From a virus: a DNA stretch of 46,666 bases. The stretch is taken from positions 1-46,666 of IMG/VR virus record IMGVR_UViG_3300045539_000124; one strand, written 5' to 3'. The notes under the pieces were generated by a model. The model had not been told where the DNA came from and ran no database searches. It saw only the letters and a list, made by a program, of their open reading frames with translations. The position numbers and the translations under genes were made by a program. This document shows positions 1 through 33,348 of the stretch, piece after piece (position 1 is the first letter of the stretch; each line of letters begins with the position of its first letter).

Positions 1-150
1 GTGAACTACTCCGACCCTAAAGGGTACGGAGCTTCGGGTTTCATCGACTCACCTAATGGCAACGCCTCACACCGTTTTTGTTTTATGTCCGACTTAGTCC
101 CTAATCCAGACAATATTATTAAACCTTGTTTTTTTATATTTATTGCAGCA
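1..150 (-). ncRNA. Candidate omega (guide) RNA region at tnpB 3' end
   Basis: The last part of tnpB and the DNA beyond its stop are much richer in G and C than the rest of the element and form a stable hairpin at 9-31 (CTCCG/CGGAG plus CCC/GGG, loop TTTA on the minus strand). In IS605 systems the omega RNA covers this region and its guide is the DNA just outside the element. The guide itself would lie left of this window. The extent given is approximate and inferred from family knowledge. Confidence 0.45.
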
Positions 151-1202
151 TTCAAATCTCTGTCATGCTTCACCCCACAACCAACACAAACCCACTCCCT
201 GTCTTTCAATGTTAAGTCTTGGTTGATATAATTACAACACGAACATGTTTTACTACTTGGAAAGAATCTACCAATCTTTACAACGGTTTTATCATTCCAA
301 CCTGCTTTGTATTCAAGCATATTGTAAAATGTACCTAACGCTACATCACTAAATGTTTGGGCTAATTTATGATTTTTCATCATATTTTTCACTGCTAAGT
401 CCTCTATACAAATCACATCGTGGTTTTTGACGATTTCTGTACTAACTTTATGTAAATAATCTCTTCTAATATTTTTTACTTTTTCATGTACTTTCGATAA
501 CTTATTTTTTTGTTTTTTATTACCAACACTACCTTTTTTCTTTTTAGATAACTGTCTTTGCTCGTATTTTAATTTTTTTAAATTAACTTTAAGTGTTTTT
601 TTATTCTCATAAACCTTTCCATCCGAAAGGATTGCCAAATCCTTTATACCTGTATCAATCCCAATCTCCGAATTTGTTTTATCAAATTCAATATAGTCAA
701 CCTCACATGTAATACTAACATAATATTTGTTTGTACTTGATTTGGATATTGTTGCAAACAATATCTTTCCATCAATTTCTCTATGAAGATTAATTTTTAT
801 TCCACCTTTAAATTTTGGTATAATTAATTTATTGTTTTCGACAATAATTGATTGAGGAATAGAAAAACTTTGTTCATTATATTTTGATTTAAACTTAGGA
901 AATTTAGCTTGTTTTTTAAAAAAATTATTGTAAGCTACATCTAAGTTTCTTAGAGATGATTGCAAACTTTGACTATTAATTTCTTTTAACCAACTTAAAT
1001 TTTCATCTTTTTTTAAATTTGTCAAATCATTTGCGTTATCATAATAACTTAAAGATGTTTTATTTTCAAGATAAGTTTCTTTTCTTTTGTTTAGATAATG
1101 GTTAAATACAAATCTAGTTGCCCCAAAATGTTTTGCCAACAAGATTTGTTGGTTTTTATTTGGTGATAGCAAGAATTTATATGATTTGTAAATTTGTTTC
1201 AT
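6..1202 (-). CDS. tnpB: TnpB RNA-guided nuclease of IS200/IS605 element
   Basis: This is a 398-residue TnpB (OrfB), the family of RNA-guided DNA nucleases ancestral to Cas12. All catalytic elements are visible: RuvC-I Asp183 in EIGIDTGIKDLA, RuvC-II Glu267 in CIEDLAVKNMM, a CxxC...CxxC zinc finger (Cys320, 323, 339, 342) and RuvC-III Asp in HDRDLNAAINI (347-349). The N-terminus is the usual OrfB helix-turn-helix region starting MKQIYKSYKF. The last 25 or so residues, rich in Pro, Glu and Gly, are read from GC-rich DNA that also forms the terminal hairpin, so coding sequence and element end overlap, as is common where the guide RNA is made. An ACTATTTA motif lies 17 bases upstream of the ATG. 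Confidence 0.93.
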   Translation of the reverse strand: MKQIYKSYKFLLSPNKNQQILLAKHFGATRFVFNHYLNKRKETYLENKTSLSYYDNANDLTNLKKDENLSWLKEINSQSLQSSLRNLDVAYNNFFKKQAKFPKFKSKYNEQSFSIPQSIIVENNKLIIPKFKGGIKINLHREIDGKILFATISKSSTNKYYVSITCEVDYIEFDKTNSEIGIDTGIKDLAILSDGKVYENKKTLKVNLKKLKYEQRQLSKKKKGSVGNKKQKNKLSKVHEKVKNIRRDYLHKVSTEIVKNHDVICIEDLAVKNMMKNHKLAQTFSDVALGTFYNMLEYKAGWNDKTVVKIGRFFPSSKTCSCCNYINQDLTLKDREWVCVGCGVKHDRDLNAAINIKKQGLIILSGLGTKSDIKQKRCEALPLGESMKPEAPYPLGSE

Positions 1203-1693: not shown

Positions 1694-1716
1694 CCCCAAC
1701 CCTAAAGGGATAGGGG
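1694..1716. repeat. IS605 subterminal hairpin on tnpA side
   Basis: CCCC-AA-CCC-TAAA-GGG-ATA-GGGG folds into a bulged hairpin. It matches the hairpin at 9-31 in loop and core stem and lies just past tnpA, so it is the probable TnpA recognition structure. Confidence 0.7.
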
Positions 1717-4035
1717 TTTTACGCACAAAACCGATAAATCTTCTTTATTATTGATTAATAATTTTAAACATTCACTAATATCTTCATAAATATGTGGTAC
1801 ACAATCTAATTCTTTAATTTCATTTGCTGTACACCATTTATATTCACTGTGTTCTTTATTTATTTTAATATCATTAGGTGTTTTTGTAATTGCAACAAAT
1901 AATGCCACTTCACAATCACCATCATGTTTATTGTAACAATATTTAATGAAGTCTAAATCTAAATTAGTTTCTTCTTTGACCTCTCTAATAAAAGCATCTT
2001 TAAATTCTTCATCACCATCAACCTTTCCACCAACTAATGCCCATTTACCTGGAAACCATTTAGTATCTACACCACGTTTAACTAATAATATACTTTTTTC
2101 TGGATTTAAGATAACCCCACAAGAAGCTTTCTTAGTTGGTATATAGTTTTCAATTAATTCAATATGTTCTTTTAAAGCCATAGGATTGCGTGTTAAACCG
2201 ATAGTTGATTTATCGTGTGATTTTAAATGTGTATTATTTAATATTGTCATATTTTTTCTAATATCTTTACCAGTAGATATTGAATCTCTTTTCATCGCTA
2301 ATATTAGATTAATATAATTTTTTAATTTAATACCACCATGTAATTGGTATTCTTCTGATGTATTATTTCCTTTGAAATTATCAAAATAATTTTTTATTTT
2401 CTTTGCATACTCGTATGTTAATGAATATTCAGGTTTGTCATCAATAGCTGATACAATATGTTTTATTATTTCAGCTTTATCACCATATTGTTTTATTAAA
2501 TCATCCAAATGTTTTTGTATGTTTGGTGAAACTATTTTTAATATAGTACCTTTTAAATCTGAATTTTCTTCATTAAGTGTATTTTTTATTAATCTTTCTT
2601 GAATATATTTTACTAGTGTTTTAATATCTTTTACTGAATTAAATTCACCAATAAGTTTTCCATCAGCATATAATAAATATGTTTTTTTCTTGTCTCTTAT
2701 TAATCCTTCGGCTATTCTAAGGTTTACACCATTTATATCTGCTTGTGCAAGTGGATGTTCATAATTAAACATGTTTTGTCTAATATCATTACGTTTATTA
2801 AATATATTCTGACCAGGCACTACATCATTATAATTGCTTTCAATTTCTTTTTGTAAATCTTCAATTTCTTTTTTAGTAACCTTTCCTTCAATACCTAAAT
2901 AATTTAATATATTTGGTTTTAATGAATTAGATAATGCAGTATTATTTTCATTTAAAGTGTAATAATTATTTAATTTCATTTTATCTCCAAGTAAATTTTC
3001 TCTATTCATTCTAAGAATTAAATCTTTGACCCATTGTTTTTTAAATGAATCTTTTAAATTATTAAAAACAATATTTAAAGTTGGTGTTAAATTAAATAAA
3101 TCTCTTAAACTTAATTCGTTCCAATTTTCTTTATATTTATTATATACTTGTTTAATATTATGTATTTGTCCTTGTATTTCCATTTTTGTTGAATCTACTG
3201 GTACATTATTAATATCTCTTGTACCTAATTTTGATGCAATTTCAGTACGTTTATAAATATGTTGATTATTATTTGTATCATCAATCCAGTGTGCTAATTC
3301 ATGGTGTATTGAACCTTTTATTCTTTCTTCTGTAAATTCCATTTTAAAAGAATTATATTGATTACCACCTTTTAAACTATCTAACGCATCATTATAATCA
3401 CCATTAAATTCATTTAATACATAATTAATAGCATTACGATTAGCAGATAAAAAAATAGTTTTTGTACTAGGTCTATAAGCGTTACCAAGTCTATTGTTAA
3501 TAATTAATTCACATATATTTGTTTCATTTGCTTTAATAGAATCTTCTGAATTAAGTATATTAGTATTATCACCTTGATATTCTTCAAACATCTCTTTTCT
3601 AATAATACCTGTTTTATTTAACTCATCTATATCAGTTTTAAAATATTTATTATATAATAAATCAACATCGCTGTCAACATTTGTTAATTTTTCAGTTAAT
3701 AAAGATTCATTTAAATTGTTATTAACTACCCAAAACCATTCAAAACCATTTGTACCACTGGTTTTAATAAAATAAATATTATTAGTTTTGAAAAAATTAT
3801 ATGTATCACTTAAATTATTTAAAAAATCATCAAAACTTTCATCTGAATCTAAAATTTCATGTGGATTTACATTTAATAAAAAATCTTTTTTACTAATTTC
3901 ACTCGAATTTTTTAATGTATCTTCCCACCATTTTTCAGTATCAATATTTTTAAAAAAATCTATATTATTTTTATTGAACCTACAACTTCTAATGTTATCA
4001 CATTGACCTATGTATTTACTATCTTCATTTAACAT
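1702..4035 (-). CDS. HExxH metallopeptidase-like protein with C-terminal Nudix hydrolase domain
   Basis: The 777-residue protein has two recognisable parts. Around residues 243-247 HHELAHWIDD fits a zinc-peptidase HExxH motif. Residues about 645-770 form a Nudix hydrolase domain with a near-perfect Nudix box (GKVDGDEE...REVKEETNL; the usual Gly before the final hydrophobic is Asn). Nudix enzymes cleave nucleoside diphosphate-linked compounds. The middle is Asn/Lys-rich and unrecognised. The final eight or so residues and the stop codon come from the IS605 end, so the original C-terminus was replaced, but the Nudix fold looks essentially complete. An ACTATTTA motif lies 17 bases before the ATG. 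The combination of domains has no function I can name; a virion-carried or early effector is possible. Confidence 0.72.
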   Translation of the reverse strand: MLNEDSKYIGQCDNIRSCRFNKNNIDFFKNIDTEKWWEDTLKNSSEISKKDFLLNVNPHEILDSDESFDDFLNNLSDTYNFFKTNNIYFIKTSGTNGFEWFWVVNNNLNESLLTEKLTNVDSDVDLLYNKYFKTDIDELNKTGIIRKEMFEEYQGDNTNILNSEDSIKANETNICELIINNRLGNAYRPSTKTIFLSANRNAINYVLNEFNGDYNDALDSLKGGNQYNSFKMEFTEERIKGSIHHELAHWIDDTNNNQHIYKRTEIASKLGTRDINNVPVDSTKMEIQGQIHNIKQVYNKYKENWNELSLRDLFNLTPTLNIVFNNLKDSFKKQWVKDLILRMNRENLLGDKMKLNNYYTLNENNTALSNSLKPNILNYLGIEGKVTKKEIEDLQKEIESNYNDVVPGQNIFNKRNDIRQNMFNYEHPLAQADINGVNLRIAEGLIRDKKKTYLLYADGKLIGEFNSVKDIKTLVKYIQERLIKNTLNEENSDLKGTILKIVSPNIQKHLDDLIKQYGDKAEIIKHIVSAIDDKPEYSLTYEYAKKIKNYFDNFKGNNTSEEYQLHGGIKLKNYINLILAMKRDSISTGKDIRKNMTILNNTHLKSHDKSTIGLTRNPMALKEHIELIENYIPTKKASCGVILNPEKSILLVKRGVDTKWFPGKWALVGGKVDGDEEFKDAFIREVKEETNLDLDFIKYCYNKHDGDCEVALFVAITKTPNDIKINKEHSEYKWCTANEIKELDCVPHIYEDISECLKLLINNKEDLSVLCVKPLSL

Positions 4036-4052
4036 ATTATTAAACTTTATTA

Positions 4053-4060
4053 TAAATAGT
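4053..4060 (-). promoter_or_regulatory. ACTATTTA promoter-like motif before Nudix gene
   Basis: The minus strand reads ACTATTTATAATAAAG. The motif ends 17 bases before the ATG of the 777-residue gene. Confidence 0.5.
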
Positions 4061-4247: not shown

Positions 4248-5498
4248 TTATAATCCTATTTTATAAACAAATACACCACAATCATGTATTGTATTTTCTG
4301 AATAAGATATATCGTATTCGTGAAATCGTTTATCACCTTTATAATAACTAATTCTTGGTTCTTCTTCTGAATGAAGAATAAAACCTAAGTTTTCAAAATC
4401 TTTTAAATGTTTTTTACCAAACCAACGTTTATCAAATTTAATTGTAAGGTTATTTGAATTATATTCTTTAATATAATCATTAAAAATAGTAATATTTAAA
4501 TTTTTTAAATTATATTTATCTTCAATGTGAAAATTTTCTATAACATTATTACTATTAATTGATATATAACCAATTTGTGTATTATTTTCTTTTGTAAAAA
4601 TACCGTAATTAATATTATTTGTTTCATCAAAATATTTCACAACCCCATAACTAATATAAAATTGATTTTGTTTTATATCAGAGTCTATTTTTGTTATGTA
4701 ACAATTATTAAAATTAATATCAATTGTATTTCTTTTGATGATTTCGATATGTTTGTCATTTAATATATTTTCCTTTAAAAATAATAAATCATCATAATTA
4801 ATATAATTTTCATTACCAACAAGTTTTAATATTTTATTTATAATTATTAATGTATTATTTTGAAATTCATCTTCAAAAACTTGTATTAAGTGATAATCTT
4901 TTTGCTTTGCTAAATTAGTTTTATTAATATGATAATTTTTACCTTTTTTATCTGTACTATGATAATATACACCATTATATTCGATACCACTTTTGTAATC
5001 ACTAAGTAATATATCTATTTCATGCCCAGTGCCTAGTAAAATTCTATTACCTTTATCAGGTACATTATTTAAATATTTTTTTAATATATTTCTTAATAAT
5101 CTTTCACCAGTAGATGTATTATAAGTATCATGTATTTCAATATTATTGTCATATAAAATTTTATAAATACTAAATGCTGATACATCAAATTCATCTTTTA
5201 ATTCAACAACAAATTTATTTTTATTACTATAATTAGTACATATATATTTTATTTCTTCTTCTGTGAAATCAATAATATTTTTATCTTTAATTTCAACACT
5301 ATTTTCATTTAAAAGGCGATATATAGTATCCGTTGAACAATTATAATCAATAGATAATTCTTTAACACTTTTATTTCTTTTAATATAATTATTAGTTATT
5401 TCTTTAATATCTTCATCTGAAAATACTATATGTCTACAATCTTTTATCTCAATATTATTTTCAACTAATAATCTATTAATAATATTTGATGAAGTATA
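4248..5498 (-). pseudogene. C-terminal part of Vsr-like homing endonuclease split by IS607 element
   Basis: The frame is open from the IS607 junction to the stop at 4248 (416 codons) and has no in-frame ATG near its beginning. It starts inside a helix-turn-helix repeat (YTSSNIINRLL), continues with further repeats such as KSVKELSIDYNCSTDTIYRL, then a nuclease core with GHEIDILLSDY, GIEYNGVYYHS and HLIQVFEDEF. The C-terminal region is GNAT-like and ends DCGVFVYKIGL. The intact 879-residue endonuclease at 42568-45207 matches it throughout (GQEIDILSEKH, AIEYNGLYYHS, HIFEDEY, DCGLFRYKLSL). Joining it directly to 7889-8305 restores one 555-residue frame. No other stop or frameshift was found, so the disruption is probably recent. 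Confidence 0.85.
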
Positions 5499-5561
5499 AT
5501 CTAACTTTATACAAATATAAGAAAAATAATGTAATTACAATGTAATTTTTCTTTTATTTTT

Positions 5562-5569
5562 ACTATTTA
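5562..5569 (+). promoter_or_regulatory. ACTATTTA promoter-like motif before IS607 tnpA
   Basis: The motif TACTATTTAAT ends 15 bases before the tnpA ATG. It lies inside the element. Confidence 0.4.
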
Positions 5570-5584
5570 ATATAAAGAATTAAT

Positions 5585-6157
5585 ATGAAATATAAAATAT
5601 CTCAATATGCTAAACTTAATCACGTAACAATCAGGACTATATGGAATTGGATTGCGGATGGACGTTTGACAATTGAAAAAACTAAAACTAATAGAACTTT
5701 AATTATTGAAGATAATAATCCAATCAAACAACGTGTTGTTGTTTATGCAAGAGTATCTTCTTCGGAAAATAAATCAAATCTTGAATCTCAAAAACAACGT
5801 CTATTAGATTTTGCTTCGGCAAAAGGTTATATTGTAGAGGATGTTATAACCGAAATCGGTTCTGGTCTTAATGACCAACGACCTAAATTAGAAAAAATTC
5901 TCGTAGATAGGTCAATAACACATATAATTGTGGAACATAAAGATAGACTTGCTAGGTTTGGATTAAACTATATACAAAAACTACTTGAACTTGATAATCG
6001 TAAAATTGAAATCATCAACAACGTTGATGATAATAAACAAGATGACCTTATGCAAGATTTTGTTTCAATTATTACTTCTTTCTGTGCAAGACTGTATGGT
6101 CAACGTAGAACAAAAAGAAATACTGAAAAATTAATAACGCAACTAAACCAAGAATAA
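5585..6157 (+). CDS. tnpA: IS607-family serine recombinase (TnpA)
   Basis: This 190-residue protein is a typical IS607 OrfA. Residues 1-40 form a MerR-like helix-turn-helix (KISQYAKLNHVTIRTIWNWI). The rest is a serine resolvase catalytic domain with the nucleophile motif VVYARVSSSENKSNLESQ (about 51-68) and the arginine motif EHKDRLARFG (about 119-128). It would catalyse integration and excision through a covalent serine-DNA intermediate, with little target specificity and no target duplication. The length is normal (about 190-220 residues). tnpB follows after 21 bases, so the two are probably co-transcribed from the ACTATTTA motif upstream. Confidence 0.94.
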   Translation: MKYKISQYAKLNHVTIRTIWNWIADGRLTIEKTKTNRTLIIEDNNPIKQRVVVYARVSSSENKSNLESQKQRLLDFASAKGYIVEDVITEIGSGLNDQRPKLEKILVDRSITHIIVEHKDRLARFGLNYIQKLLELDNRKIEIINNVDDNKQDDLMQDFVSIITSFCARLYGQRRTKRNTEKLITQLNQE

Positions 6158-6178
6158 TAATTAACTTAGATTTACCTA

Positions 6179-7822
6179 ATGATAATAGATTCTCAATTCT
6201 CAAAAGACTTCCACTCTTTTAACTTAAATAACGTTAAATACGATGCTATGCACCGTAAAGCAACGCTTTTAAGAGAATTTAGAAATAATTTATCAACCAA
6301 AATTAACCAAAACCTTTTCTTTTATTTACAATCACAAACGTTTGACGTAGTCAAACTTCTTAATACTCAAATTGACCACCTTACTGGTCAAGATATACAA
6401 CACGCTATCGCAAACGTTCACACAACTTATATTAATAAATTTGAAAGTGTTTTAAAAAAATTAACGTTTAAAATACAAACAACAAATAAAATTAATGTAA
6501 CCAAATATAAGGTTAAAACAAAAAATAATGTTGCTGGTGATATTAAAAGTTTTTCAATAACTTTAAAATCAACACCTTTATCAAAAATTTTACTTTATAT
6601 ATCAAAATTTGATTCAATAAATCAATGTCTTGATTTTATTCAAAATAAATTAAATGAAAAAGATTTAGATGAAAATAAATTATTATTCTATGTAAAAATC
6701 CTTGAAACAACAATAAAATTTGGTGAAAATAGGTTATTTGATTTACTTAATAATAAACGTTTACGTTTAATTAAAAATTATAATAATGAACCAATAATTT
6801 TTAAAGAGTTAACATATAGTTCATTAAGTAGGTTAACAACAGATTTTGTTGGTGAAAATGTTAATAAAAAATCAATAATTAATTGTTTTTTAAATATTGG
6901 TGGTATTGAAAGTATTGATGGAAAAGAAAACAAGGTTGTAGTTCCATGTAATTTTTCAAAGAAATATCATGGTAGTCCAAGTGATTATAATAAAAATAAT
7001 GTTGGTCAAAAATGCGTAAGTTATACTGTTTGTTTTTTAGAAGATAAACAAATAAGAGTTATTTTATCAAAACCTGGTAAACGTTTAATAAATGTAGGTG
7101 GAACAGATTATTTAGGGGTTGACGTTAACGTCAAACATAATATGTTTGCTTTGCCAGATGGAAAAACATTTGATTATGATAGAAATATAATAAATAAGTT
7201 TGTTAACTTACTTAAACACGTTGACCGTGTAAAAGAACATAAAAACAAACTTGGTTTATCCAAGAAACAAGTTAATGTTGTTGGAAGACAATATAATAAA
7301 CATCTTAAAAGTTATAGATTAAAGATTCGTGGTATGTTACAAAGTTCATGTAGTGAACTTGTAAAATATACTAAACAAATTGGTAAAAACCATTTGGTTT
7401 TGGAGGACTTAAAGTTAAGTTCGAAGATGTTTAGTAAGTCGGATGAATTTGATGAATTTAATTACGCTAGGTTGTTTAGGTTGTTAAATTTAGTTGACAT
7501 AAAAAATATTGTAAAGGGAATTGCGTATAAGCAAGGTGTGTCGGTTAGTTTTGTCCACCCACATTATACTAGTCAACAATGTGATTGTTGTGGTCACATT
7601 AGTAGGGAAAATAGAGTTTTACAAGAGGAATTTAAATGTATTGAATGTGGAAACGGCATGAATGCCGATACACATGCAGCAATTAATATAGAAAACAGAT
7701 GCTCGATAGATGTTCTACGAGATAGTCTTTTAACTAAAAATAAGTTGGGAGAATATGTTCCGAAGGTTTTGTCGAAGGACAGAATAAAGGAAACGTTGTT
7801 AGAGTGTAGTTACAGGTCTTAG
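6179..7822 (+). CDS. tnpB: TnpB-like RNA-guided nuclease, long form (547 residues)
   Basis: The C-terminal half is clearly TnpB: RuvC-I Asp315 in LGVDVNVKHN, RuvC-II Glu409 in LVLEDLKLSSKMF, a zinc finger (Cys468, 471, 487, 490) and RuvC-III Asp497 in MNADTHAAINI. The protein is about 140 residues longer than common TnpB proteins (about 370-410), and the extra length is in the first 300 residues, which I do not recognise. All catalytic residues are present. The last third of the gene has noticeably more G and C than the first two thirds, consistent with a structured guide RNA overlapping the 3' end. It follows tnpA in the same element. The partner RNA would be transcribed from 7700-7888. Confidence 0.88.
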   Translation: MIIDSQFSKDFHSFNLNNVKYDAMHRKATLLREFRNNLSTKINQNLFFYLQSQTFDVVKLLNTQIDHLTGQDIQHAIANVHTTYINKFESVLKKLTFKIQTTNKINVTKYKVKTKNNVAGDIKSFSITLKSTPLSKILLYISKFDSINQCLDFIQNKLNEKDLDENKLLFYVKILETTIKFGENRLFDLLNNKRLRLIKNYNNEPIIFKELTYSSLSRLTTDFVGENVNKKSIINCFLNIGGIESIDGKENKVVVPCNFSKKYHGSPSDYNKNNVGQKCVSYTVCFLEDKQIRVILSKPGKRLINVGGTDYLGVDVNVKHNMFALPDGKTFDYDRNIINKFVNLLKHVDRVKEHKNKLGLSKKQVNVVGRQYNKHLKSYRLKIRGMLQSSCSELVKYTKQIGKNHLVLEDLKLSSKMFSKSDEFDEFNYARLFRLLNLVDIKNIVKGIAYKQGVSVSFVHPHYTSQQCDCCGHISRENRVLQEEFKCIECGNGMNADTHAAINIENRCSIDVLRDSLLTKNKLGEYVPKVLSKDRIKETLLECSYRS

Positions 7823-7888
7823 GATTGTGAGTAATGCGTAGCTTGTCTGCGTGGGTAATTTCATTAAATTACATTACTTTCTGTAACT
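7700..7888 (+). ncRNA. Candidate omega (guide) RNA of IS607 element
   Basis: The tnpB 3' end and the following 66 non-coding bases are GC-richer than their surroundings. They contain hairpins CGTAG/CTGCG (about 7838-7852) and GTAATTT/AAATTAC (7855-7872). By analogy with known TnpB systems the RNA would run to the element end and take its guide from the flank starting at 7889 (ATTATATATTTTAGCA), which is the interrupted endonuclease gene. The 5' limit is arbitrary. Confidence 0.45.
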
Positions 7889-8305
7889 ATTATATATTTT
7901 AGCAATAGTAATTGTACTATTATTATTTTTATATAAATTAATAATATTAGTTTTTTCTATATCTGTGAAATTTCTTATTCTTCTATTTGTAATTAATATA
8001 TTATTTTCTTTTAATATTCTATATAATACAATAGAAGTTATATTAAAAGTATTTGATATAATATCAATTGGAATTGTGGTATTTTGATATTGATATATTA
8101 AATTAGTAATTTGTTCATGTGGTAAGTTGATTTTATTATAAGATGGTGTTCTTTTATATATTTCAATATTATTTTTATCTAAAATTCTTTTAATAACAGA
8201 TTGATTAACATTATACAATAAACCAATTTCTTTAACTGTTTTATTGTTATTTATATAATTATAAATAATATCTTTTACTTCTGTTTCACTAAAATTAAAT
8301 GCCAT
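7889..8305 (-). pseudogene. N-terminal part of the IS607-split homing endonuclease
   Basis: Codons 1-139 of the interrupted gene begin MAFNFSETEVKDIIYN. They consist of roughly three short helix-turn-helix repeats of the form T-x-KEIGLLYNVNQSVIKRILDKNNIEI. The open frame runs on into the element as four foreign residues (SYRK) and stops at 7874. A truncated DNA-binding product could still be made. The gene starts 70 bases after the terminase stop on the same strand, the type of intergenic position favoured by phage homing endonucleases. No ACTATTTA motif precedes it. Confidence 0.8.
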
Positions 8306-8375: not shown

Positions 8376-10043
8376 TTAGAATAAAAAAAATGTTTCTGGT
8401 AATATTTTTTTATTTGTATTATCTTGTCCATTATTTTCATAACGACTTTTTAATTCTCTTTCATAATATTCTGCATTATTATTGCTCACAACCCATGCAC
8501 TAACCATAGCTTTTGTTTTTTCTAGTGCTTTGGAAATTGATGTACCATTAGTATCGCAAACATATAAAGCTATTGATAATGAGAAGATTAAGTCACTAGT
8601 ACCACCTCGTTTATGGTCTGGACGACCTTTGTTATCGACAAAGCCTCTTAACTCTTCTAGTAATCTACTAGAACGAACAATAATTTCATCACGAAAACCT
8701 CTTGACATTGCATCCAGTATTTCATTTCTATTATTTTTAGTAATAACGATACCTGGTCTCAAATCATTATTTCCTTCATTTTCTAATCTATCTTTAATAT
8801 ATCTATCTTTTATTTCTGTATAGTGAATATTTTTATATTCATAAGTGTTAATTAATTTTTGTGCAACAGGAATACCATAAGACCCTGTTAAATCAATAGC
8901 AACATAAGCATTATTATAGATAACTGCATATTTATATACAATATCTGCTAATAAATCTGGTGGTATTTTACCTCGATACTCAGCAACCATCTCCTTAGTA
9001 AATAAGTTAATAATGGTAATTGTTGAATAATCTTCTGCAACACCTGATGATACATCTGAGCCAAGTACATATTTCTCATCAGGTGAAGAAGGGAACTTCC
9101 AAATATGAAAACAATTATTAAAGTCATAGAAATTAGGTTTAATAATATTTTCAACTTCTTGTTTAATTAAATATTCTTCATCAATAAAAGCACCCCCTGA
9201 ATTATTAAATGAACATTCTAATTCCTGAGCAATCTTCTTCTTGTCGAAATTGAACCCAGCACATTCTCGTTCATACCAACTAGAAGTTGGCTTATAACCT
9301 CTGATTATCAATTCTTTCTGTTTATCTTCGTCAAATTCAATAATTTCATCATTACCAGAAACCCATTTTAGGTCAGAAATTAATCTTACATCACGATACC
9401 ATTTTAATTCTTGACATACAAATGAACTTTTACCTTGTGATGCTAAATCAAAAATTTTAAAAAATACATTATTACACCCTGATGGTGTACTAATTATACG
9501 AACATTACCCCCCATAGAGAATACACTTTTACTACTCTCCCAAAACTCTTCATCGTGTTCAAAGTGTGCAAATTCATCGATAATTAGGTTGTTTATTTGT
9601 ATACCCCTCAACGAATTTCCTTGTCCTGCCTTTGCTATTATTTCAGAACCATTAGCATATGTTTTAAATTTTTGTGAATCAATAATAGTTTCAACTCTTA
9701 AAAAATCTGGTAAATTTTGTATAAAATCTGATATTCTTTTTAATAATTCAATTCTTGCATGTTCTAAATTATTACCTACCACGCCCAATTTTATATTTTG
9801 ATTAAAACATATTTTCCAAGCGTAATATGCTGAGGTAAAGGAAGTTATACCACTCTGTCTGTACTTATTTGTGATAAAATGCTCGTTGTTCTCATACAAT
9901 TTAAAAGTATCCTTTTGGTGTGGAAGCAATTTAAATGGTATTACACCTATTTTTTTATCTTCAATTTTAAGGTAAGTTTCTGCAAAGTATTCAAAATCCA
10001 TTGCACATTTTATCCATTCTAGTTCTAATTCCTGTTTTGTCAT
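8376..10043 (-). CDS. terL: Large terminase subunit (T4 gp17-like)
   Basis: This 555-residue protein is the DNA-packaging motor ATPase and nuclease. The ATPase half shows the Walker A region KYRQSGITSFTS (60-70), the GNSLRG motif (141-146) and Walker B NLIIDEFAHF (151-160). The nuclease half has GSDVSSGVAEDYS with Asp329, a second acidic site VAIDLTGSYG (Asp383) and GGTSDLIFSLSIAL near the C-terminus. The usual Walker A lysine before the Ser/Thr is replaced by Ile (GIT instead of GKT). It is slightly shorter than T4 gp17 (610). It is transcribed divergently from the gene at 10099. On its strand GGTATTTATAA lies about 25 bases before the ATG, a variant of the motif seen elsewhere. Confidence 0.95.
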   Translation of the reverse strand: MTKQELELEWIKCAMDFEYFAETYLKIEDKKIGVIPFKLLPHQKDTFKLYENNEHFITNKYRQSGITSFTSAYYAWKICFNQNIKLGVVGNNLEHARIELLKRISDFIQNLPDFLRVETIIDSQKFKTYANGSEIIAKAGQGNSLRGIQINNLIIDEFAHFEHDEEFWESSKSVFSMGGNVRIISTPSGCNNVFFKIFDLASQGKSSFVCQELKWYRDVRLISDLKWVSGNDEIIEFDEDKQKELIIRGYKPTSSWYERECAGFNFDKKKIAQELECSFNNSGGAFIDEEYLIKQEVENIIKPNFYDFNNCFHIWKFPSSPDEKYVLGSDVSSGVAEDYSTITIINLFTKEMVAEYRGKIPPDLLADIVYKYAVIYNNAYVAIDLTGSYGIPVAQKLINTYEYKNIHYTEIKDRYIKDRLENEGNNDLRPGIVITKNNRNEILDAMSRGFRDEIIVRSSRLLEELRGFVDNKGRPDHKRGGTSDLIFSLSIALYVCDTNGTSISKALEKTKAMVSAWVVSNNNAEYYERELKSRYENNGQDNTNKKILPETFFLF

Positions 10044-22984: not shown

Positions 22985-23003
22985 ACTATTTACATTAAAT
23001 AGT
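22985..23003. promoter_or_regulatory. Divergent pair of ACTATTTA motifs (palindromic)
   Basis: ACTATTTA on the plus strand (22985-22992) and on the minus strand (22996-23003) face outward in a near-perfect palindrome. Each ends 18 bases before its own start codon: 23011 plus, 22977 minus. The whole intergenic region is only 33 bases, so these are the only candidates for both promoters. Confidence 0.65.
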
Positions 23004-26439: not shown

Positions 26440-26447
26440 ACTATTTA
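26440..26447 (+). promoter_or_regulatory. ACTATTTA promoter-like motif at 26.44 kb
   Basis: ATACTATTTATAATT lies in the short gap after the 1141-residue gene and ends 23 bases before the ATG at 26471. Confidence 0.5.
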
Positions 26448-26470
26448 TAATTAAATAAAATATTAAAAAT

Positions 26471-30672: not shown

Positions 30673-33348
30673 ATGGCAGATTTCATTTTCGTCTCTCCTT
30701 CCGTAAAAACGAAGGAAATTGATTTAACCCCAACAACAACAACTGTCGGTTTAACGACAGCAGGTTTAGTGGGTGAAACAGTTAAAGGACCAGCTTTTCA
30801 AGCAATCCCTATTAGTAACAAATCTCAATTCAGAAACCTTTTTGGAGGTAAAAGTGTTGAAAAAATTGGTGATAATTATAAATATATATTACCTTATTAT
30901 GCAGATAGTTACTTATCAGAATCTAATCAATTATTTGTAACAAGAGTCCTTGGATTATCAGGATATGTTGCTGGTAAAGCTTGGGGTGTAAAAATACTTG
31001 CATCTTATGACCCAACAACTATTGCTAATGGTTCTAGTTCTACTGGTTCTACAACTTATGTTGGTACTTTTAGTGGTGTAACAATCGCAGCTTCACAAGT
31101 TGGTGTAACTTCTACAATTTCTCCTTCTTTTGTTAGAAGTGTTGATACTTTTACAGGTACAGAAGTTAAATATATTATTGGAACAGCTGTTTCAACTGTT
31201 AGTGGTTTAACTGGTACAGTTACTTATACTGCTACTACACAAACTGCTACACCTTATACTGCTTATGATAAACAAGTTGTTGCTACACTTAGAACAAGAG
31301 GTTCTTATTCTATTGATACTTTAACTTACAATACAAGTGGTTTAACAATGACTGTTGGTGGTGCAGCAACTTCACCATTTAGTACATTTACACTTACTGC
31401 AAGTGGTGCTGTATCAAATGAATCTTATACAGTTTCTATTGACCCAACTTCTACTTCTTATTTAAGTAAAGTTTTAGGTTCAAAACCAAAAGATAAAGCA
31501 ACAGGTTTGTTTGTTCAAACTGATTATCCTGATTTGATTAGTTACTTACAATATAATAATTTAATTTATGGTATTTCTAGTGAATTAGTTGTATTAGATG
31601 ATAATGTTAAAGTTAGTTTTGCTTCTTCTTATAGAAGTGCTGAAACTCCTTGGATTGTTTCTGAAATAAGAGGTTCTGTAATCGATAGATTATTTAAATT
31701 TATTACTATTTCTGATGGTGATACTGCGAATACTGAAATTAAAATTTCTATTCAAAATATTGCACCTGAAACTGGTGAATTTGATGTAATTATTAGAGAT
31801 TTTAATGATACAGATAATAACTTAATTATTCTTGAATCATTCTCTAAATGTAATTTAGATAAATCTAGTACATCTTTCATTGGTAATAGAATTGGTGATA
31901 ACGGTAATAATTATAATAACTTGTCAAATTATGTTTACTTAGAATTTGATGATTTAGATAATTTACCTTCTGATGCATTCCCTGCTGGTTTTGAAGGTTA
32001 TAATTTAAGGTCTTTTGCTAGTGGTAATACTAATGGTCAAGTAGGTTTAACACCTTCTATGTTATTTAAAACTTCATACTTAGCAACTGATAAACTTTCT
32101 AGAACATATTTAGGTATTTCTGAAAGAGCTTATGATACTTCAAGTAATGGTACTGGTATTAACCCATCTTTCTTTACTTATAGTGGTGGTTTATCTGCTA
32201 GTGGTACAACAAAAACAAAAGGTTTCCACTTAGATTCAGGTGCAACTTTAACTTATGTTGATGGTACTTACTCAATTGGACAATTCTATACTGGTCTTGG
32301 TCAATTCCAAACTGCTGTTGATACTAATAATGTTAGTAATCCTTATTACAGTAAAGCTACAAGAAAGTTCACAGTAGCACCTTATGGTGGTTTTGATGGA
32401 TGGGATATTTATAGAACAACTAGAACAATTGCAAATAAATATGCTCTTGGTGGTTCAGCTTATTCAGCTACTGCTGATTATACTGCATGGACACAAGCTA
32501 TCAATACATTTGATAATCCAGAAGAAACTGCAATCAATTTAATTGCAACACCTGGTATTAACTGGGCTGACAATCTTGGTTTAGTTAATTATACTATCGA
32601 TATGGTTGAAACTAGGTCTGATGTTCTTTATATTGCTGATGCACCTGATTTAACTAATGAAGCTGATAGTGCTACTTATGCTAACGATATTAGTGATTTA
32701 ATGTTAAGTACTGGTATTGATTCAACTTATGTTTGTTCTTATGGTCCACATTGTCAAATATTCGACCAGGATAATAATGTTAACGTGTATATTGCACCTA
32801 CTGGTATGGTTTTAAAATCAATGGCTTACACTGATAATAAATCATTCCCTTGGTTTGCTCCTGCTGGTTTAACAAGAGGTGTTACTGATGTTAAGAAAAC
32901 TAGATATAAACTAAAAGAAACCGATAGAGATATTTTGTATTCAGTAGGTATCAATCCATTAGCTACAAATAATCAAATTGTAACTATTATGGGTCAAAAA
33001 GTTTTATCTCCAACAGCTTCATCTTTAATGTCTAGAATTAATGTTAGAAGATTATTACTTTATTTGAAAAGAACTATTTCTAATATTTCTCAACAATTAT
33101 TGTTTGAGCAAAATGATGATGTAGTTGTACAACAATTTATGGATAAAGTTAAACCTGTATTTGCTGCTGTAAAAGCTGAAAGAGGTATTAACCAATTCAT
33201 TGTTAAGCTTTCTGATAGTAATACACCTGAATCAAGAGATAGAAACGAACTCTATTTTGATATGTATATATATCCAACTAGTTCAGTTGAATTTATTGGT
33301 TTATCGTTTATTGTTACACCTAATGGTGCAGCATTTCAAGGTGCTTAA
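30673..33348 (+). CDS. Tail sheath protein (T4 gp18-like)
   Basis: The 891-residue protein is the contractile tail sheath subunit. Its N-terminus MADFIFVSPSVKTKEIDLTP, followed by GLVGETVKGPAF and a PISNKSQFRNLFGG segment, is characteristic. The conserved C-terminal domain is clear: YSVGINPLATNNQIVTIMGQ, SRINVRRLLLYLKRTI, and a final NELYFDMYIYPTSSVEFIGL region. It is longer than T4 gp18 (659). The extra length lies mostly in the Ser/Thr/Gly-rich protruding region at about residues 115-260. No tail-tube (gp19) gene follows; a terminator does, so tube and sheath are not adjacent here. Confidence 0.95.
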   Translation: MADFIFVSPSVKTKEIDLTPTTTTVGLTTAGLVGETVKGPAFQAIPISNKSQFRNLFGGKSVEKIGDNYKYILPYYADSYLSESNQLFVTRVLGLSGYVAGKAWGVKILASYDPTTIANGSSSTGSTTYVGTFSGVTIAASQVGVTSTISPSFVRSVDTFTGTEVKYIIGTAVSTVSGLTGTVTYTATTQTATPYTAYDKQVVATLRTRGSYSIDTLTYNTSGLTMTVGGAATSPFSTFTLTASGAVSNESYTVSIDPTSTSYLSKVLGSKPKDKATGLFVQTDYPDLISYLQYNNLIYGISSELVVLDDNVKVSFASSYRSAETPWIVSEIRGSVIDRLFKFITISDGDTANTEIKISIQNIAPETGEFDVIIRDFNDTDNNLIILESFSKCNLDKSSTSFIGNRIGDNGNNYNNLSNYVYLEFDDLDNLPSDAFPAGFEGYNLRSFASGNTNGQVGLTPSMLFKTSYLATDKLSRTYLGISERAYDTSSNGTGINPSFFTYSGGLSASGTTKTKGFHLDSGATLTYVDGTYSIGQFYTGLGQFQTAVDTNNVSNPYYSKATRKFTVAPYGGFDGWDIYRTTRTIANKYALGGSAYSATADYTAWTQAINTFDNPEETAINLIATPGINWADNLGLVNYTIDMVETRSDVLYIADAPDLTNEADSATYANDISDLMLSTGIDSTYVCSYGPHCQIFDQDNNVNVYIAPTGMVLKSMAYTDNKSFPWFAPAGLTRGVTDVKKTRYKLKETDRDILYSVGINPLATNNQIVTIMGQKVLSPTASSLMSRINVRRLLLYLKRTISNISQQLLFEQNDDVVVQQFMDKVKPVFAAVKAERGINQFIVKLSDSNTPESRDRNELYFDMYIYPTSSVEFIGLSFIVTPNGAAFQGA

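Follow-up and report, generated by a model that had tools for sequence, protein, structure and literature searches.

The window analyzed here is the whole of an IMG/VR record of 46,666 bases, which is linear, is probably a fragment, and has a G+C content of 24.6%. Its T4-type large terminase gene is covered at ≥80% in 1698 phage records, and a contractile tail sheath gene lies farther along (Table 1). Between the terminase gene and a gene for a 777-amino-acid (aa) NUDIX-containing protein sits a minus-strand homing endonuclease gene in two pieces; between these pieces, antisense to them on the plus strand, are tnpA and tnpB of an IS607-family element.

Table 1. Features of the split endonuclease locus and other genes of the window
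Feature	Positions	Strand	Basis or remark
C-terminal piece of the homing endonuclease: rest of HTH repeat 3, repeats 4 and 5, nuclease, C-terminal domain	4248-5495	minus	
Hef-type nuclease region of the split gene	4827-5354	minus	phrog_3339, E = 5.8e-18
IS607-family element, 2393 bp, most likely ends	5496-7888	plus	Right end AACT/AT, left flank GT/AT, HTH repeat register
IS607 element, 2390 bp, alternative ends from the earlier note	5499-7888	plus	
Left end with AATGTAAT-type repeats (candidate TnpA-binding motifs) and tnpA upstream region	5496-5584	plus	Sequence
Promoter-like motif ACTATTTAATATAAA before tnpA	5562-5576	plus	
tnpA, IS607 serine transposase, 190 aa	5585-6157	plus	Catalytic motif YARVSS intact (alignment)
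tnpB, long divergent TnpB/Cas12f-like predicted RNA-guided nuclease, 547 aa	6179-7822	plus	PF07282
Putative guide RNA scaffold, overlapping the tnpB 3' end	7806-7890	plus	RNA fold; putative
Predicted guide: host DNA just past the right end, matching the uninterrupted endonuclease allele	7891-7910	plus	By analogy with the TnpB mechanism (PMC11061315, PMC11870625)
N-terminal piece of the homing endonuclease, 139 codons: HTH repeats 1, 2, and half of 3	7889-8305	minus	
Large terminase gene, T4-type	8376-10043	minus	PF03237; upstream of the split endonuclease gene
Contractile tail sheath	30673-33348		
Intact Hef-like homing endonuclease paralogue, 879 aa	42568-45207	minus	phrog_3339, E = 2.8e-79; phrog_559

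In the restored protein, five helix-turn-helix (HTH) repeats form an array, the third of which is interrupted by the insertion and completed when the pieces are joined. Judged by its domains, the split gene is that of a free-standing homing endonuclease of the Hef-like kind, adjacent to the terminase gene, and in its HTH array, its Hef-type nuclease (phrog_3339, phrog_559) and its position beside an essential gene it resembles the Hef-like endonucleases of T4-type and jumbo phages. The C-terminal half matches phrog_3339 with an E value of 2.2e-16. It had been proposed in an earlier note on this DNA that both halves match the intact paralogue. This holds for the C-terminal half, where residues 229 to 555 of the joined protein match specifically (E = 3e-30; 30% identity in this half), whereas the N-terminal half matches only through generic HTH repeats (E = 1e-5). 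Unjoined, the N-terminal open reading frame runs from 7874 to 8305 and encodes 143 aa. On the C-terminal side, the first ATG, GTG, or TTG codon is found only at 4640, past the nuclease domain, leaving ∼285 codons with no standard start; thus, production of the nuclease is very improbable, and the split endonuclease is almost certainly dead. Unlike other Hef-like endonucleases, this copy is interrupted and has no start codon before its nuclease.

TnpA scores 180.7 bits against NF033518, the curated IS607 equivalog (cutoff, 110), and matches phrog_6620 (E = 6e-54). Its best PDB matches are IS607-type TnpA structures (6dgb, the IS1535 TnpA, E = 1.5e-29; 6dgc; and 3ilx), and its closest solved relatives are the TnpA proteins of IS1535 and ISC1926. 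On this sequence evidence, the element at 5496 to 7888 is an IS607-family transposon with an IS607-type serine recombinase. Like other members of the family (IS607, IS1535, ISC1904, and the phage members in Thermus phage TMA, Campylobacter phage CP21, and Nodularia phages), it combines a serine recombinase that has an N-terminal DNA-binding domain with the gene order tnpA-tnpB. Short direct motifs are known at IS607 ends (PMC6188088), and the repeats at the left end of this element are candidates for such a role in TnpA binding.

TnpB is more divergent. It matches the Cas12f1-like TNB domain (PF07282; 55 bits, cutoff 26.3), and a profile search with it recovered Cas12f and TnpB structures in the PDB. 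The RuvC residues D315, E409, and D497 and the zinc-binding cysteines 468, 471, 487, and 490 are intact and invariant in five relatives. However, it falls below the cutoffs of the curated TnpB and IS607_TnpB models (NF040570, 53 bits versus 100; NF038280, 24 bits versus 350). An AlphaFold model of low confidence (pLDDT 68, pTM 0.39) was used for superfamily placement only. Judging from these matches, the protein is a divergent member of the TnpB/Cas12f superfamily outside the curated subfamily. At 547 aa, it is also longer than the TnpB proteins of the IS607 family (about 390 to 430 aa). It shares the RuvC triad and the zinc ribbon with Cas12f and with TnpB/OMEGA nucleases (ISDra2, ISFba1), and, as with them, a structured RNA is expected at the right end; it differs from both in its much greater length and its scores under the curated TnpB cutoffs, and its guide RNA and TAM are predictions. 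The putative scaffold folds at −22 kcal/mol (z ≈ −1.9), only mildly better than shuffled sequences, and its hairpin has a basal stem that closes where the element ends on the right. Full-length relatives of the 547-aa TnpB were found only on viral contigs, with tnpA at two loci (L030 and L073) and without it at two others (L007 and L008). A genome scan with TnpB found no relatives; the scan with TnpA found bacterial IS607 matches of up to 65% identity, and none of the 80 matches listed for it is a bacterial IS607 element with a long TnpB.

The right end of the element could be placed by evidence independent of the reading frame. Conservation of TAACT/AT (the slash marks the boundary) extends to 14 related phage elements, and 46 of 59 bacterial relatives show a less strict version, RRCTAT; the right boundary is thereby fixed at 7888/7889 with AT as the core. 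On the left, 18 of 46 relatives have the flank GGTAT (300 shuffles averaged 3.9 and never exceeded 10), and the window has AAGT/AT, with the core at 5496-5497 and its second copy at 7889-7890. We scored all in-frame, AT-cored joins with the family right end at 7889. The best alignment of repeat 3 came from a join that removes 2393 bases, so that the left host DNA ends at 5495 and the protein has 554 aa: summed over the other four repeats, it scored 264, versus 236 for a 2390-base join, and no other join preserves the recognition-helix spacing YN..RLL. Taken together, the right end, the GT/AT flank, and the repeat 3 alignment favor a join one codon from that of the earlier note, which had connected codons 5498 and 7889 for 2390 bases removed and 555 aa.

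An insertion identical in kind but with these 2390-bp ends (AT core at 5499-5500) is unlikely. Such a join is likewise in frame and AT-cored, it makes repeat 3 exactly 52 residues long, as are repeats 2, 4, and 5, and AT/CTAA is also present near the left ends of the related elements L036 and L030. On the other hand, its repeat 3 aligns worse to every one of the other four repeats, the conserved distance between the YN pair and the R-L-L of the recognition helix is broken, and the family flank (G)GT/AT is mismatched. The 52-aa periodicity at first seemed to support this junction and was overturned by the residue-level alignment. L030, the closest element of the same type, lacks GTAT.

We conclude that the insert is probably 2393 bp and the restored protein 554 aa, with a left end that is set by pattern and uncertain by 3 bp. 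The open frame reported before stands, on the minus strand, and the left end that had been called exact is most likely 3 bp off. The absence of a target duplication was confirmed, since a single AT restores the frame under either placement; the core shared by the two junctions is AT (or TAT) whichever left end is taken. IS607 elements are known to share a dinucleotide, GG, and to produce no target duplication (PMC6188088, PMC4058570). The present element agrees with them in both respects and differs in having AT (or TAT) as its core, with a (G)GT flank. The predicted uninterrupted site for the 2393-bp element reads ..GATGAAGT-AT-TATATATT..; with 2390 bp it would be three bases longer.

The insertion had also been described as recent. 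The open frame and the absence of indels agree with this, but the bound is loose: a random substitution in the restored gene has a 5.9% chance of creating a stop, so that at most ∼49 neutral substitutions, or 3% (95%), have accumulated since insertion, with no indels. "Recent" is thus a fair but loose description. The earlier note proposed a search for an uninterrupted allele in related genomes. Neither such an allele nor any relative of the split gene turned up when IMG/VR and phage records were scanned with the terminase, the joined protein, and both junction peptides. Two candidate empty alleles were rejected: L009 is a chance match, antisense to phage structural/packaging genes, whereas a related gene is absent from L087.

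It is highly probable that an IS607 element with tnpA and a long tnpB inserted over a 2-bp AT core into a Hef-like endonuclease gene of a T4-type phage, where it would persist by a drive. Insertion would have proceeded by serine-recombinase strand exchange at a target of the form (A/G)GTAT. By analogy with other IS607 elements, TnpA would excise and insert the element through a circle, over the AT core (PMC4058570). The guide RNA scaffold would be built from the right end together with the 3' end of tnpB, and the host sequence that follows would serve as guide. TnpB with such an RNA would then cut uninterrupted copies of the endonuclease gene, and repair of the cut copies would copy the element back, so that it is retained or driven. 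A gene drive role of TnpB has been shown for IS200/IS605-type elements in plasmids (PMC11870625). As proposed here, the old endonuclease would have lost its own homing, an RNA-guided selfish nuclease displacing a protein-guided one. Nested phage elements and collaborative homing (PMC10448857) also place two mobile elements at one locus; in contrast to the latter, the newcomer here destroys the older nuclease rather than cooperating with it. The endonuclease gene probably tolerated the insertion because it is dispensable, and the event is what survival of transposons in dispensable genes would predict: a selfish element inserted into a selfish gene that can be spared, of a kind already known. 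The locus captures, cleanly and with a bound on its age, the displacement of one selfish nuclease element by another in a phage, with junctions exact enough for testing excision and guide targeting.

IS607 elements also interrupt nuclease genes in other phages. Scanning with the aligned TnpA proteins yielded 65 viral loci. At L036, an IS607 element splits a GIY-YIG endonuclease gene, of which the N-terminal piece matches PF01541; joins made with ends of this type keep the frame, and uninterrupted homologues exist elsewhere. At L043, the split gene lies within a RecA intein and encodes a Vsr-like nuclease, a type judged by motifs, with no Pfam match; its uninterrupted homologues elsewhere align across the junction. 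Thus, at least two more nuclease genes are split in the same manner, and the group-wide ends, (G)GT/AT .. AACT/AT, allow other such insertions to be mapped. A NAMPT gene at L021/L024 looks split, but its pieces fail to join in frame. In the literature searched, we found no IS607 element described within a homing endonuclease gene; the accessible parts of Campylobacter phage papers describe genomes that contain IS elements as well as homing endonucleases and report no interruption there.

The recurrence of IS607 in nuclease genes is real. A broader reading would have a phage IS607 lineage with a long, phage-restricted TnpB repeatedly take over homing endonuclease loci, kill the resident nuclease, and swap in an RNA-guided drive against uninterrupted alleles during coinfection; this we regard as quite unlikely. 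It is more doubtful still that the IS607 elements of this group actively favor homing endonuclease genes as landing sites. Consistent with a preference are the three cleanly split nuclease genes (in the window, L036, and L043), a truncated DUF723/DUF4379 gene abutting the right end of the element at L010, and the IS607 elements beside inteins at L045 and L047. Random placement, however, predicts 0.54 elements in Hef and GIY-YIG genes, an expectation that covers only records holding such genes, and one was observed with the window's own excluded. By this count, neither family shows enrichment beyond chance, and survival of insertions only in dispensable genes suffices to explain the pattern, so that no target preference is needed.

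In place of a single interrupted gene, the halves could already have been separate genes, or a frame-split pair, with the element between them. No empty allele contradicts this, and the N-terminal open reading frame begins with a start codon of its own, from which a short HTH protein might be made. However, both halves break midway in the same HTH repeat, and the C-terminal half lacks a standard start throughout the nuclease domain; we saw no genome in which the halves are separate genes without the element, the finding that the earlier note had named as refuting an insertion. Separate genes are therefore very improbable. Splicing of the insert from RNA, as in an IStron, would leave the endonuclease still made. 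The locus resembles IStrons (a group I intron with an IS607/IS605 tnpB) in having two selfish elements at one site; clean removal of the insert restores the frame, and IS607-type tnpB occurs in some IStrons, according to the accessible part of PMC4227781. Unlike IStrons, it has no intron ribozyme, its tnpA and tnpB lie on the strand opposite the split gene, and the host gene is not rescued. Searches of both strands against Rfam found no group I intron, at the gathering threshold in the window or in a relaxed scan of the region, and no placement along the AT slide pairs a 5' exon ending in U with an intron ending in G; we rejected splicing as extremely improbable. A chimeric assembly is scarcely credible even for a metagenomic IMG/VR contig, since a random join would not be expected to coincide with conserved family ends and restore a protein repeat in register.

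Returning to the IS607 element itself, a perfect copy of the promoter-like motif ACTATTTAATATAAA precedes tnpA. The motif also precedes many genes of the same phage, with 15 matches versus 5.8 expected (none of 100 shuffles reached 15), suggesting that the element may be expressed as part of the phage programme.

IS607 elements recur in or near endonucleases and inteins at other loci. The element that splits a viral GIY-YIG endonuclease gene (L036) has the same type of ends as the one in the window, and Lak megaphages carry uninterrupted homologues of the Vsr-like nuclease split in L043. At L045 and L047, IS607 elements adjoin a DnaK intein and intein-bearing terminase genes. In Campylobacter phage CP21 (L081, 34.2-38.9 kb), IS607 adjoins a PhoH gene annotated in pieces, between which sit TnsA-like, possibly Hef-like, fragments.

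Two viral contigs, of 168 kb and 339 kb (L007, L008), also encode relatives of the window's long TnpB, in both cases unaccompanied by tnpA; the hairpin and T-run 5' of these genes may represent a separate guide-like RNA. Another TnpB in the window (9-1202, minus strand; 398 aa) is of the canonical IS200/IS605 type and scores above the cut-off of NF038281; no IS200-type tnpA was noticed near it.

The motif ACTATTTANNNTAAA, a candidate phage promoter, lies ∼15 to 40 nt 5' of many genes in the window (15 copies versus 5.8 expected) and also precedes tnpA of the IS607 element. The 777-aa protein encoded at 1702-4035 (minus strand) fuses a long unknown N-terminal part to a C-terminal NUDIX domain.

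Positions of features in the window and related loci
Feature	Locus	Position (strand)
GIY-YIG endonuclease gene split by IS607	L036	5003-8182
RecA gene with intein, its Vsr-like nuclease split by IS607	L043	4784-8803
GAGGT..ACCTC hairpin and T-run, 5' of TnpB relative	L007	about 3880-3990
Same	L008	about 3900-3990
ACTATTTANNNTAAA, example copies	Window	4046-4060 (-), 5562-5576 (+), 22985-22999 (+), 26440-26454 (+)
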